Origin: Phycisphaerales bacterium
Lineage (GTDB): Bacteria > Planctomycetota > Phycisphaerae > Phycisphaerales > UBA1924
Assembly (NCBI GenBank): GCA_020831775.1
Contig: JAFIFZ010000079.1
Coordinates: 124,001 to 188,000, forward strand
DNA: 64,000 nucleotides
Reading direction: 5' to 3'
The notes below the pieces were generated by a model that worked only from the letters and a program-made list of their open reading frames with translations, was not told where the DNA came from and ran no database searches. Positions 3,487-9,223 of this stretch are shown one piece after another. Every line of letters starts with the position of its first letter. The stretch's first letter is position 1. The translations under genes were made by a program, and so were the position numbers.

Positions 3487-3516
3487 AAAAAACGCCGGCC
3501 TCGGGAGCCGGCGTTT
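3487..3516 (-). terminator. Attenuator terminator of the histidine operon
   Basis: Read on the minus strand, AAACGCCGGC pairs perfectly with GCCGGCGTTT around a 7-nt loop and ends in a run of six T. It lies between the His-rich leader peptide and hisG, about 80 nt before the hisG start, which is the position of a classical transcription attenuator and not of an operon end. Confidence 0.9.
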
Positions 3517-3571
3517 GCAGGGCTTTGCGTTGCTGGATCGTTCAGCCGCGACGCACCCTCACCGGTTCCCG
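3502..3571 (-). promoter_or_regulatory. Predicted antiterminator pairing in the his leader RNA
   Basis: The last leader codons (minus strand 3571-3560, CGGGAACCGGTG) can pair with the 5' arm and loop of the terminator (3513-3502, CGCCGGCTCCCG): 11 of 12 positions pair, one as a G-U wobble, with a single A-C mismatch. The two structures are mutually exclusive because they share 3507-3513. A ribosome stalled on the His codons would leave 3571-3560 free to form this pairing; one reaching the stop codon would cover it. Confidence 0.75.
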
Positions 3572-3615
3572 CAGAAGGGATGATGGTGATGGTGGTGGGT
3601 CGCGAAGATGAACAT
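3559..3615 (-). CDS. hisL: Histidine operon leader peptide with six consecutive His codons
   Basis: This 18-codon ORF encodes MFIFATHHHHHHPFCGNR. Six consecutive His codons (3597-3580) sit just upstream of the antiterminator and terminator of the his operon, so histidyl-tRNA supply can set ribosome position, as in the enterobacterial his leader. There is no Shine-Dalgarno sequence; a promoter (TTGACT, 16 nt, CATGAT) places transcription start at about the A of this ATG, suggesting a leaderless message. An ATG at 3627 would add MIAP but falls inside the -10 element. Confidence 0.88.
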   Translation of the reverse strand: MFIFATHHHHHHPFCGNR

Positions 3616-3622
3616 CGGAGCA

Positions 3623-3650
3623 ATCATGCCAGCCCGCCGCGGCGAGTCAA
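3623..3650 (-). promoter_or_regulatory. Promoter of the histidine operon
   Basis: On the minus strand, a -35 TTGACT (3650-3645, five of six consensus) is separated by 16 nt from a -10 CATGAT (3628-3623). The leader-peptide ATG begins 7 nt after the -10, so transcription and translation probably start at the same base. Confidence 0.65.
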
Positions 3651-4291: not shown

Positions 4292-7200
4292 ATGGTGTAC
4301 GACGAGAAGCTGCGCAATCAACTCAAAGGCATGCGGGTCCGGGGCTGGAGCGAGAAACAGATCAACTCGATGGCCAAGCTGCTCCGGGTCAAGCCCTCGC
4401 AGTTGCAGGCCGTGTTCTGGCTGCGACGCAACATCACCGACGAGCGCCTGCTGAGAATCTACAACGAGGCCGAGCCGATCGCTCAATCCCTGGTCGGCGA
4501 TGTCGGGCGCAAGTTCTGGGGCATGGTCTTCCCCAAGCTGGGCGAACGGATCCACGAGGCCATGGAACGGTGCGCCGGCGAGCCGTACGCCATGTGCTTC
4601 GACCATCAGAAACCGTTCCGCGCACCCGGCCACGCCATGACGCACGCGATGCAGCGGGCGCGTTTCCTCGTGCATGTTTCTGACAGCCTCCGTGGCCTCG
4701 ACCCCGACGGCCCCGACATCGCCACATGGATCGCCCACATGGTCGATGAAGGCGACTGGACCCTCAGCGCGGGTCCGATGCTCCAGCTTCTCTCGAGCAT
4801 CGTCGCGGGCGCGGACCACGAATCTGAGGCGACCCGAGAAGAGCTCAGAATGTCGGTCCGGGGCGAGCACGAGATCGGCCGGATCTGCGGCCCGGGCGTC
4901 GCGGCCCTCCTGCACTCGCCCGTTCCCGAAGACATCGAACTCGTCGAAGGCCTGCTGCTCGGCGCCCGACGCCAGGAGGGTCTCCGCGACGCCGTGCTCT
5001 CGGCGATCGTCTACGCGCCGCCTGATGTGCTGAGCCGCATGCTGGGCTTCCTGGTCGAGCACAACTTCGCCCGGTTCTCTTCGATGGTCGGCAAGTACAA
5101 CTTCTGGTTCGACGCCCTGTGGCACGCGTCCGCGTCACGCGAGGTCCACAAGGGGCTCGAACGCACGCATCGATATTTTTCTGATGAGGCCGCCCGGAAC
5201 GAGGCCATCGCCAGCGGCGAGGCTCATGAGGCTCACGCGGCGCTCTGGGCGCTCGGTGTGGCCGACGCGGTCGACGCGGCCGCCCACGCCCGCACACTGC
5301 TGTCGAGTCCTTCCGTTGAGCACCGGTTCATCGCCGTGGAGACGCTTTCCGCCCTCGCACTCTTTCCTGAGTCCGCCGATGCGCTCTCCAAGCGGCTGAT
5401 CGAGGGCGAGCCCGACGCCCGCGTGCGGATGCGGATCGTCCTGCGCCTGGCCGAACTCAACCTCGACGCCGCGGACCCAGGCCTGTTCGACGCGTTGGCG
5501 GTCGTGCACGATCAGATCACCAAGAAGCGCGGCAAGCACGAGCCGCTGGTCTGGCCCTGGACGGAGATGTCCGAGAGTCGCCGCCCCGTGGTCGAACTGA
5601 TGATGAAGCTCTCGCTCTCGGGCAAGCAGCCGCAGCGGATGCTGCCCTACGCCGACTCGCTCGATCCGTGGGATCTCCGCGAGTTCGTGCGCAACCTGGT
5701 CAAAGGCAAGCAGAGCAAAATCAACTACTCCTCGATCGTCGATCCCAAGCCGGCCAAGGGCGAGATCCGAGACTTTCTACTCCGGCTCACGCAGGCCCCG
5801 TCCCAGAGCGTCTGCGAGATCGCTTTCGAAGCGCTCGCCAACACTCCGGCCGAACCGGACGAGGCGGAGTTGCTGATTGCCAAGCTCACCCGGACGAGCT
5901 CGGCCTTCAGGAAGGGAGCGATCGGGCGGTTGTTGAAGCTCGACGACAAGCAGGCCCTCGCGGCAGCGACAACGCTGCTTGAATCGAAGAACCTCAAGCA
6001 GAAAGCCGCGGGGCTGGAGATCGCCGACGAACTGGCGAAGGCCGAGCGGAAGCGGCGCGACGCCCTGAAGCTCATCGAGCGGCACCGCGACCAGCTGAAC
6101 AAGACCGAGCTCGCAAGCCAGACCGACAAGGCGTCGAACTCGGAAACGGGCCAGCCGCGCTTCGAGGCTTCGAACTTCTTCGGATTGATGGGTTCGCAGA
6201 CGCTCTCTCCGCTGATAGAGCCACAGTACCGGGGAGCCAGGGTCGACACCATCGGCGCACGCCAATGCATCGAGGAACTCTGCCTGCTGTTCAAAGAGCA
6301 CGGCGAGAAGCAGGCGACCTACAAGTCTCGCTTCGACGGCATGTCGAAGAAGATCCTTTCTGAGGCGTGCCTGGATTTGCCATCCCCTTCGAGCCACGAC
6401 GACCCAAAATCCGACGCAAGAACGGTGCTGCCTCTCGCGGATGTCTGGCTCGACTGGCTGGAAAACCGACGCATCAGCACGCGCGACGCGGACGACCTCG
6501 AGCTCGTCCGCGTCTGGATCTGGTCCCTTCAGTACGCGGACTTTCTACACGAGGTGCGCAAGCACCTCCCGGGCATCGAGCGGTGGTCCGCAGAAAGGGC
6601 CATCGGTAATGTGGCCGACTGGCTGCTCGCGGTGCAGCAGCCGTCCGGCGCCGTCGATTTCGTGCTTGACCTGCTCGAAGACGGCCTGTCGGAGCAAAAA
6701 CCGGACCGAAAAAATCCGCCGCCCGAGGCGGCCTTCACGGTCTCAATCAGCAGGAGCGACCGCGCCACCGCGGCAAACTGGATCTCAACCCACCAGAAGA
6801 TCACGAAAACCAAGGAAGAGCGAGCAAGGCACGCTCGCCTTCTGATGTACATGCTCCGCAATCACAGGGGCAGCATCCACGGCGACATGGATTTGGCTGA
6901 CTTTGCCGCGGGCTACGACGCCGGCCACTTCAACGAAGCCGACTTTGTGTACTACATGCTCGCCGAGATCGTTGAAGAGAACAAGAACTCCAACTACTTC
7001 GGTCACAACTGGAGACTCCGCACGGCGACCTCCAACCCGCCGGCCAAGGACCTCATAGACCGCCCCCCGCTGCTCGAACTCATGCGCCGCACCCGCGAAC
7101 GCATCATCGAGATCGAGCTCGGCCGCGGCGAGATGTCCGGCCCGGCGACAGAGGCCGCCCGATCGCTCGCCTCCTCCGGCGGCACCTCCACCCTCTTCAA

Positions 7201-9223
7201 GCTCGCCGCCGCGCTCGGCAAGGACTCGATGGTCCGCACCTACCAGTGGGGCGAGCCGACTCGGAAGTACTCTTTCAGCCGCCTGATCCGCATCTCCTGG
7301 CCCGAGCAGGGCGACACGCCCGAACGCTTCGCCGAACTCCAGGAGCAACACAAGCTCTCACGCAAGCGGCTGCTCGAGATCGCGGCCTTCGCCCCGCAGT
7401 GGGCACGCTCCATCGAGCACACGCTCGGGTTTCCAGGGCTCGAAGAGGCCGTCTGGTGGATCCACGCGCACACCAAGGGCTCGGGCGACTGGTCCCAATC
7501 CGACCTGCGCGACCGCTGGGCCTCCCTCATCGCCGAGCGCACGAGCGTCGGGGCCGACGACCTGGAAGAGGGCGCCGTCGATGTCGCGTGGTTCGGGCGC
7601 ATGTTCGAGGCGATCGGGCGCGAGGGGTGGGACGAGTTGCAGCGCCCCGCACGCTTCGCTTCAAGCAGCGGCGGGCACAAACGCGCCCAGCTCTTCGCCT
7701 CCGCCCTGCTCGGCGAGACCTCCGCGCCGGAGATCGAAGACCGGATCGAGCACAAACGCGACAAGGCCGCCGTCATGGCCCTCGGCCTCGTCCCGCTGCC
7801 GGCCGACCCCGAGAAGGCGCGGGCCGAATCGCTGCGCCGGTACAAAGTCCTGCAGGAGTTCAAGCGTCAGAGCAACCAGTTCGGCATGCAACGCCGCGCG
7901 TCTGAGGGCAAGGCGGTCGCCATCGCGATGCAGAACCTCGCGCGCACCGCGGGCCACCGCGACCCGCAGCATCTTGAGTGGGCGATGGAGGCCGAGGCCG
8001 TGCGCGACCTGGCCGAGGGCCCCGTCAGCGTCACCGAGGGCGAGGTCACCGTCACGCTCCGGATCGACGAGGAGGGCGCTCCCGAGCTCACCATCACCAA
8101 GAGCGGCAAGCCGCTGAAGGCCGTGCCCGCCAAGCTCCGCAAGCACGAGCAGATCTCGACGCTCCGTTCGCGCGTGACCGACCTCCGCCGGCAGAAGTCG
8201 CGCATGCGTCTGTCGCTGGAAGCGGCGATGTGCCGCGGCGACCGCTTCACGCCCCGCCAGCTCCGCGAGATGGCTTCCCATCCCGTGCTGCGCCCGATGC
8301 TCGAACGCCTCGTCTTCGTCGGCGAAGGCGGTCTGATCGGCTATCCCGCCGAGGGCGGACGCGTCCTGACCACCTTCGACGGCGCCGTCGAGCCCGTCGG
8401 CAATAACGACACACTCCGCCTCGCCCACGCCCTGGACCTTTACCAGCGAGGCGACTGGACCGAGTGGCAGCGCGACTGCCTGCGCGCCGAACGCGTCCAG
8501 CCCTTCAAGCAGATCTTCCGCGAGATCTACCCCCCCACCGAGGCCGAGCTCGCCGACGAAGGCATGGTCTCCCGCTACGCGGGGCACCAGATCCAGCCGG
8601 GCAAGACGCTCGCGCTGCTCAAGTCCCGCGGCTGGGTCGCCTCGCACGAGGACGGGGTCCGGCGCGTCTTCCTCGAAGAGGGCGTCATCGCCGAGCTCTG
8701 GGCCGGCTCGATGATCTTCACGCCCGGCTGGGTCGAGGACCCGGTGGTCGAGGGCGTGCGCTTCTGCCGCAAGGGCGACTACCAAACGCTGCCCGCCTCG
8801 AAGGTCCCGCCCAGAGTCTTCAGCGAGACGATGCGCGATGTCGACCTCGTCGTCAGCGTCGCCCACGCCGGCGGCATCGACCCCGAGGCCTCCGCCTCGA
8901 CCGTCGAGATGCGCGCATCGCTGCTCCGCGAGACGGCTTCGATGCTCGGGCTGAGCAACATCACCGTCGAGGATCGCTACGCCTTCATCGACGGCGGCCT
9001 CGCCCGCTACGCCCTGCACCTGGGCAGCGCCAACACCAGCATCCCGCCCGGACGCTCGCTGGTGATCGTGGCCGTGCCCGGCCAGCACCGCGGGCGGATC
9101 TTCCTCCCCTTCGCCGACGACGATCCGAAGACCGCCGAGGTGATGTCCAAGGCCCTGCTGCTCGCCCGCGACGGGGAGATCAAGGACCCGAGCATTCTCG
9201 CGCAGATCAAGGCCAAAGCCTGA
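4292..9223 (+). CDS. Giant DUF4132-like protein
   Basis: 1643 residues with good GAGGAG Shine-Dalgarno before the ATG at 4292. Roughly residues 1-620 are helical repeat-like (HEAT/ARM appearance), the middle contains FAPQWARSIEHTLGF and a Trp/His-rich VWWIHAHTKG stretch near 1060, and the C-terminal third resembles DUF4132 (MolR/YehI-type) proteins, ending with HRGRIFLPFADDDPKT, a motif I associate with the C-terminal part of that family. No signal peptide or TM helix is evident, so it is probably cytoplasmic. The biochemical role of the family is not established; partner gene upstream. Confidence 0.8.
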   Translation: MVYDEKLRNQLKGMRVRGWSEKQINSMAKLLRVKPSQLQAVFWLRRNITDERLLRIYNEAEPIAQSLVGDVGRKFWGMVFPKLGERIHEAMERCAGEPYAMCFDHQKPFRAPGHAMTHAMQRARFLVHVSDSLRGLDPDGPDIATWIAHMVDEGDWTLSAGPMLQLLSSIVAGADHESEATREELRMSVRGEHEIGRICGPGVAALLHSPVPEDIELVEGLLLGARRQEGLRDAVLSAIVYAPPDVLSRMLGFLVEHNFARFSSMVGKYNFWFDALWHASASREVHKGLERTHRYFSDEAARNEAIASGEAHEAHAALWALGVADAVDAAAHARTLLSSPSVEHRFIAVETLSALALFPESADALSKRLIEGEPDARVRMRIVLRLAELNLDAADPGLFDALAVVHDQITKKRGKHEPLVWPWTEMSESRRPVVELMMKLSLSGKQPQRMLPYADSLDPWDLREFVRNLVKGKQSKINYSSIVDPKPAKGEIRDFLLRLTQAPSQSVCEIAFEALANTPAEPDEAELLIAKLTRTSSAFRKGAIGRLLKLDDKQALAAATTLLESKNLKQKAAGLEIADELAKAERKRRDALKLIERHRDQLNKTELASQTDKASNSETGQPRFEASNFFGLMGSQTLSPLIEPQYRGARVDTIGARQCIEELCLLFKEHGEKQATYKSRFDGMSKKILSEACLDLPSPSSHDDPKSDARTVLPLADVWLDWLENRRISTRDADDLELVRVWIWSLQYADFLHEVRKHLPGIERWSAERAIGNVADWLLAVQQPSGAVDFVLDLLEDGLSEQKPDRKNPPPEAAFTVSISRSDRATAANWISTHQKITKTKEERARHARLLMYMLRNHRGSIHGDMDLADFAAGYDAGHFNEADFVYYMLAEIVEENKNSNYFGHNWRLRTATSNPPAKDLIDRPPLLELMRRTRERIIEIELGRGEMSGPATEAARSLASSGGTSTLFKLAAALGKDSMVRTYQWGEPTRKYSFSRLIRISWPEQGDTPERFAELQEQHKLSRKRLLEIAAFAPQWARSIEHTLGFPGLEEAVWWIHAHTKGSGDWSQSDLRDRWASLIAERTSVGADDLEEGAVDVAWFGRMFEAIGREGWDELQRPARFASSSGGHKRAQLFASALLGETSAPEIEDRIEHKRDKAAVMALGLVPLPADPEKARAESLRRYKVLQEFKRQSNQFGMQRRASEGKAVAIAMQNLARTAGHRDPQHLEWAMEAEAVRDLAEGPVSVTEGEVTVTLRIDEEGAPELTITKSGKPLKAVPAKLRKHEQISTLRSRVTDLRRQKSRMRLSLEAAMCRGDRFTPRQLREMASHPVLRPMLERLVFVGEGGLIGYPAEGGRVLTTFDGAVEPVGNNDTLRLAHALDLYQRGDWTEWQRDCLRAERVQPFKQIFREIYPPTEAELADEGMVSRYAGHQIQPGKTLALLKSRGWVASHEDGVRRVFLEEGVIAELWAGSMIFTPGWVEDPVVEGVRFCRKGDYQTLPASKVPPRVFSETMRDVDLVVSVAHAGGIDPEASASTVEMRASLLRETASMLGLSNITVEDRYAFIDGGLARYALHLGSANTSIPPGRSLVIVAVPGQHRGRIFLPFADDDPKTAEVMSKALLLARDGEIKDPSILAQIKAKA

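Follow-up and report, generated by a model that had tools for sequence, protein, structure and literature searches.

Organization of the his leader locus

The window (the whole 64,000-nt stretch of DNA analysed) carries on its minus strand a his operon that opens with a long-form hisG (HisG + HisG_C, 3405-2536), followed by a class I/II aminotransferase in the hisC position (2539-1424), hisB (imidazoleglycerol-phosphate dehydratase, 1445-822) and a glutamine amidotransferase in the hisH position (825-175), all assigned with Pfam. Beyond the window the operon continues with hisA/F, a hisA/F-hisIE fusion and hisD; judged by Pfam, a full set of his genes stands behind the leader. On contig C81 of genome G000 a single ORF (L205:2644-3921, minus strand) holds a HisA/HisF domain together with PRA-CH and PRA-PH (HisIE). 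The nearest recognised upstream gene (DUF5724/DUF4132, 4292-9223) runs in the opposite direction to the leader, so the hairpin described below does not just mark where an upstream minus-strand transcription unit ends.

All elements of the leader lie on the minus strand between 3650 and 3487, 5' of the operon. Checked letter by letter, the parts that a first-pass annotation of the DNA had named are present: a sigma-70-type promoter, TTGACT (-35, 3650-3645) and CATGAT (-10, 3628-3623) with a 16-nt spacer; an ORF of 18 codons, six of them His codons in a row; and a T-tailed terminator. The ORF (3615-3559) encodes MFIFATHHHHHHPFCGNR, starts with an ATG (3615-3613) located 7 nt downstream of the -10 element and ends with TGA (3561-3559). 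Its His codons, CAC CAC CAT CAC CAT CAT (3597-3580), are the proposed site of sensing and stalling. The terminator (3516-3487) reads AAACGCCGGCT-CCCGA-GGCCGGCGTTT and then TTT, with arms at 3516-3506 and 3500-3490 that form an 11-bp stem, a 5-nt loop (3505-3501) and a tract of six Ts (3492-3487), three of which are within the stem. No other short ORF in the 64-kb window has at least four His in eight residues, and none of 60 Markov-random windows contained a His-rich ORF and, downstream of it, a terminator. From the terminator to hisG (3486-3406, minus strand) the sequence itself folds strongly (-38 kcal/mol), and a GC-rich hairpin comes directly after the terminator.

Four strands of the leader can pair in alternative ways. 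Strand 1 (3613-3577) includes the His codons, and in the predicted fold it forms 26 bp with 3570-3540. This partner belongs to strand 2 (3571-3540), which spans the end of the ORF, the stop codon and the bases behind it. The first part of strand 2 (3571-3560) is also the antiterminator partner of strand 3 (3513-3502), which overlaps the 5' arm of the terminator (helix 3:4). The antiterminator had been described as an 11-of-12 pairing, which is correct if a G.U wobble is counted (10 Watson-Crick pairs, one G.U pair and one A/C mismatch). A 'weaker' pairing of 3604-3599 with 3552-3547, put forward at the same time as a pause hairpin, turned out to be part of the strong 1:2 helix. The 1:2 duplex has a calculated energy of -35.7 kcal/mol, which none of 500 shuffles equalled, and the folding energy of the leader gives z = -4.8 against dinucleotide shuffles. 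This strong helix, the probable leaderless start and the extent of the leader beyond Phycisphaerae had escaped the first-pass annotation.

Conservation and distribution of the leader

Relatives were collected by HisG searches in the window's family (f1) and the upstream regions of the matches were read; 52 hisG upstreams were readable. A short His-rich ORF was found at the same place before hisG in 49 of these 52 genomes, the three exceptions (G014, G120 and G108) having too few His codons. G014 (L028) and G120 (L134), from one genus, have a diverged HisG and few or no clustered His codons and have kept the promoter and terminator-like hairpins; G108 (L121) has two His codons only and an otherwise intact leader layout. 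Decay of the sensor is a possible reading of these three leaders. Outside the His cluster the peptides of the relatives share almost no similarity.

In other planctomycete families (f2, f11, f18, f22, f24, f27, f33, f36, f53, f62 and f71), every one of the 15 readable upstreams of the same HisG type carries a His-rich leader, and none of these leaders has fewer than three His codons. The other planctomycete HisG type, 29-42% identical, is preceded by a leader in only one of 23 cases (L163 of G238), an ORF encoding MTTILHVFHHCIHHHLRHSPERGSQVC with a terminator, which is perhaps of independent origin. Named loci with a leader before hisG include Pirellulaceae and Acidobacteria bacterium Mor1 (CP011806, a 5.99-Mb record). 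Further leaders occur in metagenome-assembled genomes labelled Spirochaetota, Actinomycetota, Myxococcota and others, labels that are not fully reliable. In all, dozens of related genera share the design. The leader clusters on a HisG tree, requiring 14 changes against a shuffled mean of 24.9 (0 of 500 shuffles as low), in a scoring that counts L072, L073, L094 and L099 as 'none' although they probably have short or weak leaders. With 14 changes needed, there have been many gains or losses and a single origin is unsupported.

HisG itself is patchy in family f1. Any HisG was found in just 51 of 100 genomes (40 of the 78 of good quality), and its presence varies inside one genus, G036 being without and G127 with the gene. 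Either histidine synthesis has been lost patchily or an unrecognised replacement exists. The nearest relative of the window, G001, has a 99% identical HisG (L003, compared with L002 in the window). Its leader equals that of the window from the end of the ORF onward, and its promoter, start and His codons are completely different, which points either to a breakpoint within the leader or to a chimeric assembly (the G001 contig measures 4.5 kb). The same strand 2 thus faces a different strand 1 in G001, and the resulting 1:2 duplex has -31.8 kcal/mol, with 24 of 500 shuffles as low.

Covariation of the three helices

The first-pass annotation had proposed looking in the hisG upstream regions of relatives for conserved His codons with compensatory changes, and both are present. 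For 79 non-redundant leaders the stability of each leader's own pairing was compared with that of pairings between species, using 20000 permutations. In the relatives, helix 1:2 joins the region from just past the start codon through the His codons to the end of the ORF and the following bases, and helix 2:3 joins the ORF end and stop codon to the 5' arm of the terminator. Own pairings were more stable than between-species ones for 1:2 (z = -8.6), 2:3 (z = -5.8) and 3:4 (z = -20.7), with 0 of 20000 permutations reaching the observed value in each case. Reversed, complemented or unrelated control partners gave z values of -0.2 to -2.3 for 1:2 and 2:3; for 3:4 the reversed control departed from random too (z = -7.4), yet far less than the real helix. 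At one position common to all three strands, an A in strand 3 is accompanied by a T in strand 2 in 8 of 8 classifiable leaders, and a G in strand 3 by C (35) or, as a wobble, T (11). A core-stem search located the terminator in 79 of 82 non-redundant leaders. The T tracts of some relatives are weak, 9 of 79 leaders having only three Ts in nine positions.

Promoter and probable leaderless start

The best promoter match scores at least 8 in 72 of 82 non-redundant leaders, compared with 1.8% of shuffled upstream regions, which moreover display no preferred gap between -10 box and start. The distance from the end of the best -10 box to the start codon is 5-12 nt in 91 of 93 leaders; 36 of the 93 were added later, and among their candidate starts those giving a short gap were preferred. 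No such preference was applied to the first 57 leaders, whose starts were picked by eye from the ORF lists, and 55 of these have gaps of 5-11 nt. A Shine-Dalgarno-like motif precedes 3 of 93 leader ORFs as against 25 of 36 hisG genes. The only other in-frame ATG in the window's leader (3627) falls within the -10 box. The short distance from -10 box to ATG and the missing Shine-Dalgarno motif together suggest that the leader mRNA is probably leaderless; in the window, transcription would start at about 3617-3615.

Ribosome position and the proposed switch

To model the switch, leaders were folded with a ribosome footprint placed at chosen codons, on the transcript as it stands before strand 4 is synthesised. 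The mean probability of the antiterminator was 0.69 with the ribosome at the first His codon, 0.00 with the ribosome at the stop codon and 0.24 for ribosome-free RNA; the corresponding values for the window's leader were 0.63, 0 and 0. In this computed model 75 of 79 leaders follow the expected order. Folded at equilibrium, the complete leader of the window still prefers the terminator when a ribosome is stalled on it (0.92 and 0.86). Commitment to helix 2:3 before strand 4 is transcribed must therefore matter. The ribosome-mediated logic originally read from the mutually exclusive pairings is thus supported, within the limits of such a model, by the order of folding and by the covariation of 2:3.

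We consider it very probable that the leader controls the his operon as a transcription attenuator that senses histidine through the translating ribosome, with a start that is probably leaderless. The sequence parts, their conservation, the covariation of three helices and the folds modelled for fixed ribosome positions are the basis of this reading; from them we infer the transcription start, the actual translation of the leader, stalling and read-through. RNA polymerase would start at, or no more than about 3 nt from, the leader ATG (3615), and a start at this point means that the ribosome begins on a leaderless mRNA. When His-tRNA is plentiful, the ribosome would reach the TGA (3561-3559) and cover the antiterminator half of strand 2 (3571-3560), the terminator stem (3516-3490) would form and transcription would end near 3487. 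A shortage of His-tRNA would stall the ribosome on the six His codons (3597-3580), breaking helix 1:2; the freed strand 2 could then pair with strand 3 (3513-3502) while strand 4 has yet to be synthesised, no terminator would form, and transcription would continue into hisG and the rest of the operon. In the absence of translation, helix 1:2 is predicted to sequester strand 2, so that termination would be the default.

Alternative explanations

The same sensing could operate from an ordinary 5' UTR, transcribed from a promoter further upstream, which would make the leader a textbook his attenuator that is not leaderless. Our promoter call is a consensus match and the start codons of 36 leaders were chosen in favour of a short gap, which leaves this reading some room. 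We nevertheless think it unlikely, given the equally short gap in the leaders chosen without that preference, the rarity of comparable promoter scores and the lack of a preferred gap in shuffled upstreams, the scarcity of Shine-Dalgarno-like motifs and the position of the alternative ATG inside the -10 box. Control might also be exerted, additionally or instead, at another level, through translation of hisG, Rho or a trans-acting RNA derived from the terminated leader. The strong structure between terminator and hisG is in keeping with this, as is the Sinorhizobium trpL leader, which yields both a trans-acting RNA and a peptide (PMC7298713); but the elements that covary are the terminator and its mutually exclusive partner, and the terminator lies about 80 nt from hisG, and we give this option little weight.

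Even less can be said for a working small protein, for example a metal-binding one, whose gene is followed by an unrelated terminator. Runs of His bind metals and the ORF is intact in relatives, but the peptides have next to nothing in common beyond the His cluster, the His codons pair and covary with strand 2, and the ORF is tied to one hisG type; we regard this explanation as very improbable. Chance could conceivably have placed a GC-rich hairpin and a stretch of repeated His codons before hisG, since hairpins of this kind abound where GC content is high. The random windows lacked the combination, however, and it has been kept throughout most of the family despite diverged sequence; conservation and covariation already refute coincidence, to which we assign a negligible likelihood. 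The histidine-sensing attenuator with a probably leaderless start remains our preferred reading.

Implications and other amino acid operons

The leader would extend classical ribosome-mediated attenuation to Planctomycetota. It has been doubted that transcription and translation are closely coupled in this phylum, given its unusual membrane organisation; a conserved attenuator implies that the ribosome stays close behind RNA polymerase in these bacteria. With their probably leaderless starts, the leader ORFs would provide many natural cases in which selection acts on leaderless initiation, and the leaders, absent from Rfam, can together serve as a new RNA family for annotation. We lean slightly towards a wider interpretation, in which the leaders form a broad, undescribed class of leaderless his attenuators linked to one long-form HisG type in Planctomycetota and in several further phyla, their almost invariant terminator sequence (ACGCCGGCC/GGYCGGCGT) being held by the antiterminator. 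If this somewhat favoured interpretation is true, ribosome-mediated attenuation with leaderless initiation would be a common bacterial strategy and not a mainly proteobacterial one.

A general use of attenuation within the family is unsupported, since a Trp leader before trpE is missing at 21 of 22 loci. At the remaining one, L196 (G006), a short ORF encoding MTRSPSVRSWWYPLL and then a T-tailed hairpin lie some 160 nt 5' of the domain match to trpE, a weak candidate for a single, possible Trp attenuator. The LeuA_dimer domain (PF08502) was found in none of 26 family f1 genomes and in all 14 control genomes.

Comparison with known attenuators

Attenuation of his operons is an established mechanism that is apparently unreported in Planctomycetota. 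The his leaders described in PMC9413887 and PMC2965389 belong to Gammaproteobacteria and some Firmicutes, and Planctomycetes are mentioned in neither text. In Actinobacteria, Seliverstov et al. found no such leaders ahead of his operons (PMC1262725). A his attenuator in Planctomycetota is likewise not reported in what is accessible of PMC2965389, PMC9413887, PMC8632094, PMC11109978, PMC1262725 and PMC4833913, nor in the open-access literature searched, a scope outside which most subscription papers fall.

The Rfam His_leader model (RF00514) scored 16.3 bits on the window, below its gathering cut-off of 49, and the Rfam leader families had no match in 20 relatives. A His-specific T-box riboswitch was rejected, the T-box covariance model having no match in the Rfam scan of the window, and sub-threshold matches to rsmX, sroD and mir in the window were at chance level.

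The hisL leader of E. coli and Salmonella (RF00514) resembles the planctomycete leader in its short peptide with a run of His and in the terminator before hisG. Its layout is different: the enteric leader sets A:B, C:D and E:F against B:C and D:E, whereas the planctomycete one has a trp-like 1:2, 2:3, 3:4 arrangement with strand 2 over the stop codon. The starts differ as well, because the -10 box of the E. coli hisL promoter, which we take to be TTGCTT-18-TAGGTT (third in the list of our scan), ends 38 nt before the ATG, compared with 5-12 nt in the leaders analysed here; the same scan returned no match as strong for E. coli hisL. Termination by default without translation and read-through at low His-tRNA, known for hisL (PMC4046918), are predicted here.

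His attenuators of Firmicutes resemble the planctomycete leader in having a row of His codons, three to five in their case, and a terminator and antiterminator before the his genes (PMC9413887). The leader peptides reported in these sources come from the Bacillus cereus group, Peptostreptococcaceae and Erysipelotrichales (PMC9413887; for hisZ/hisS, PMC2965389). They differ in phylum and HisG type, and a leaderless start is not described in the parts of PMC9413887 and PMC2965389 available. A precedent for such a start is the trpL attenuator of Sinorhizobium meliloti, which senses Trp and not His, is found in Alphaproteobacteria and is unrelated in sequence; like the leader proposed here, its leader-peptide RNA begins with the ATG (PMC7298713).
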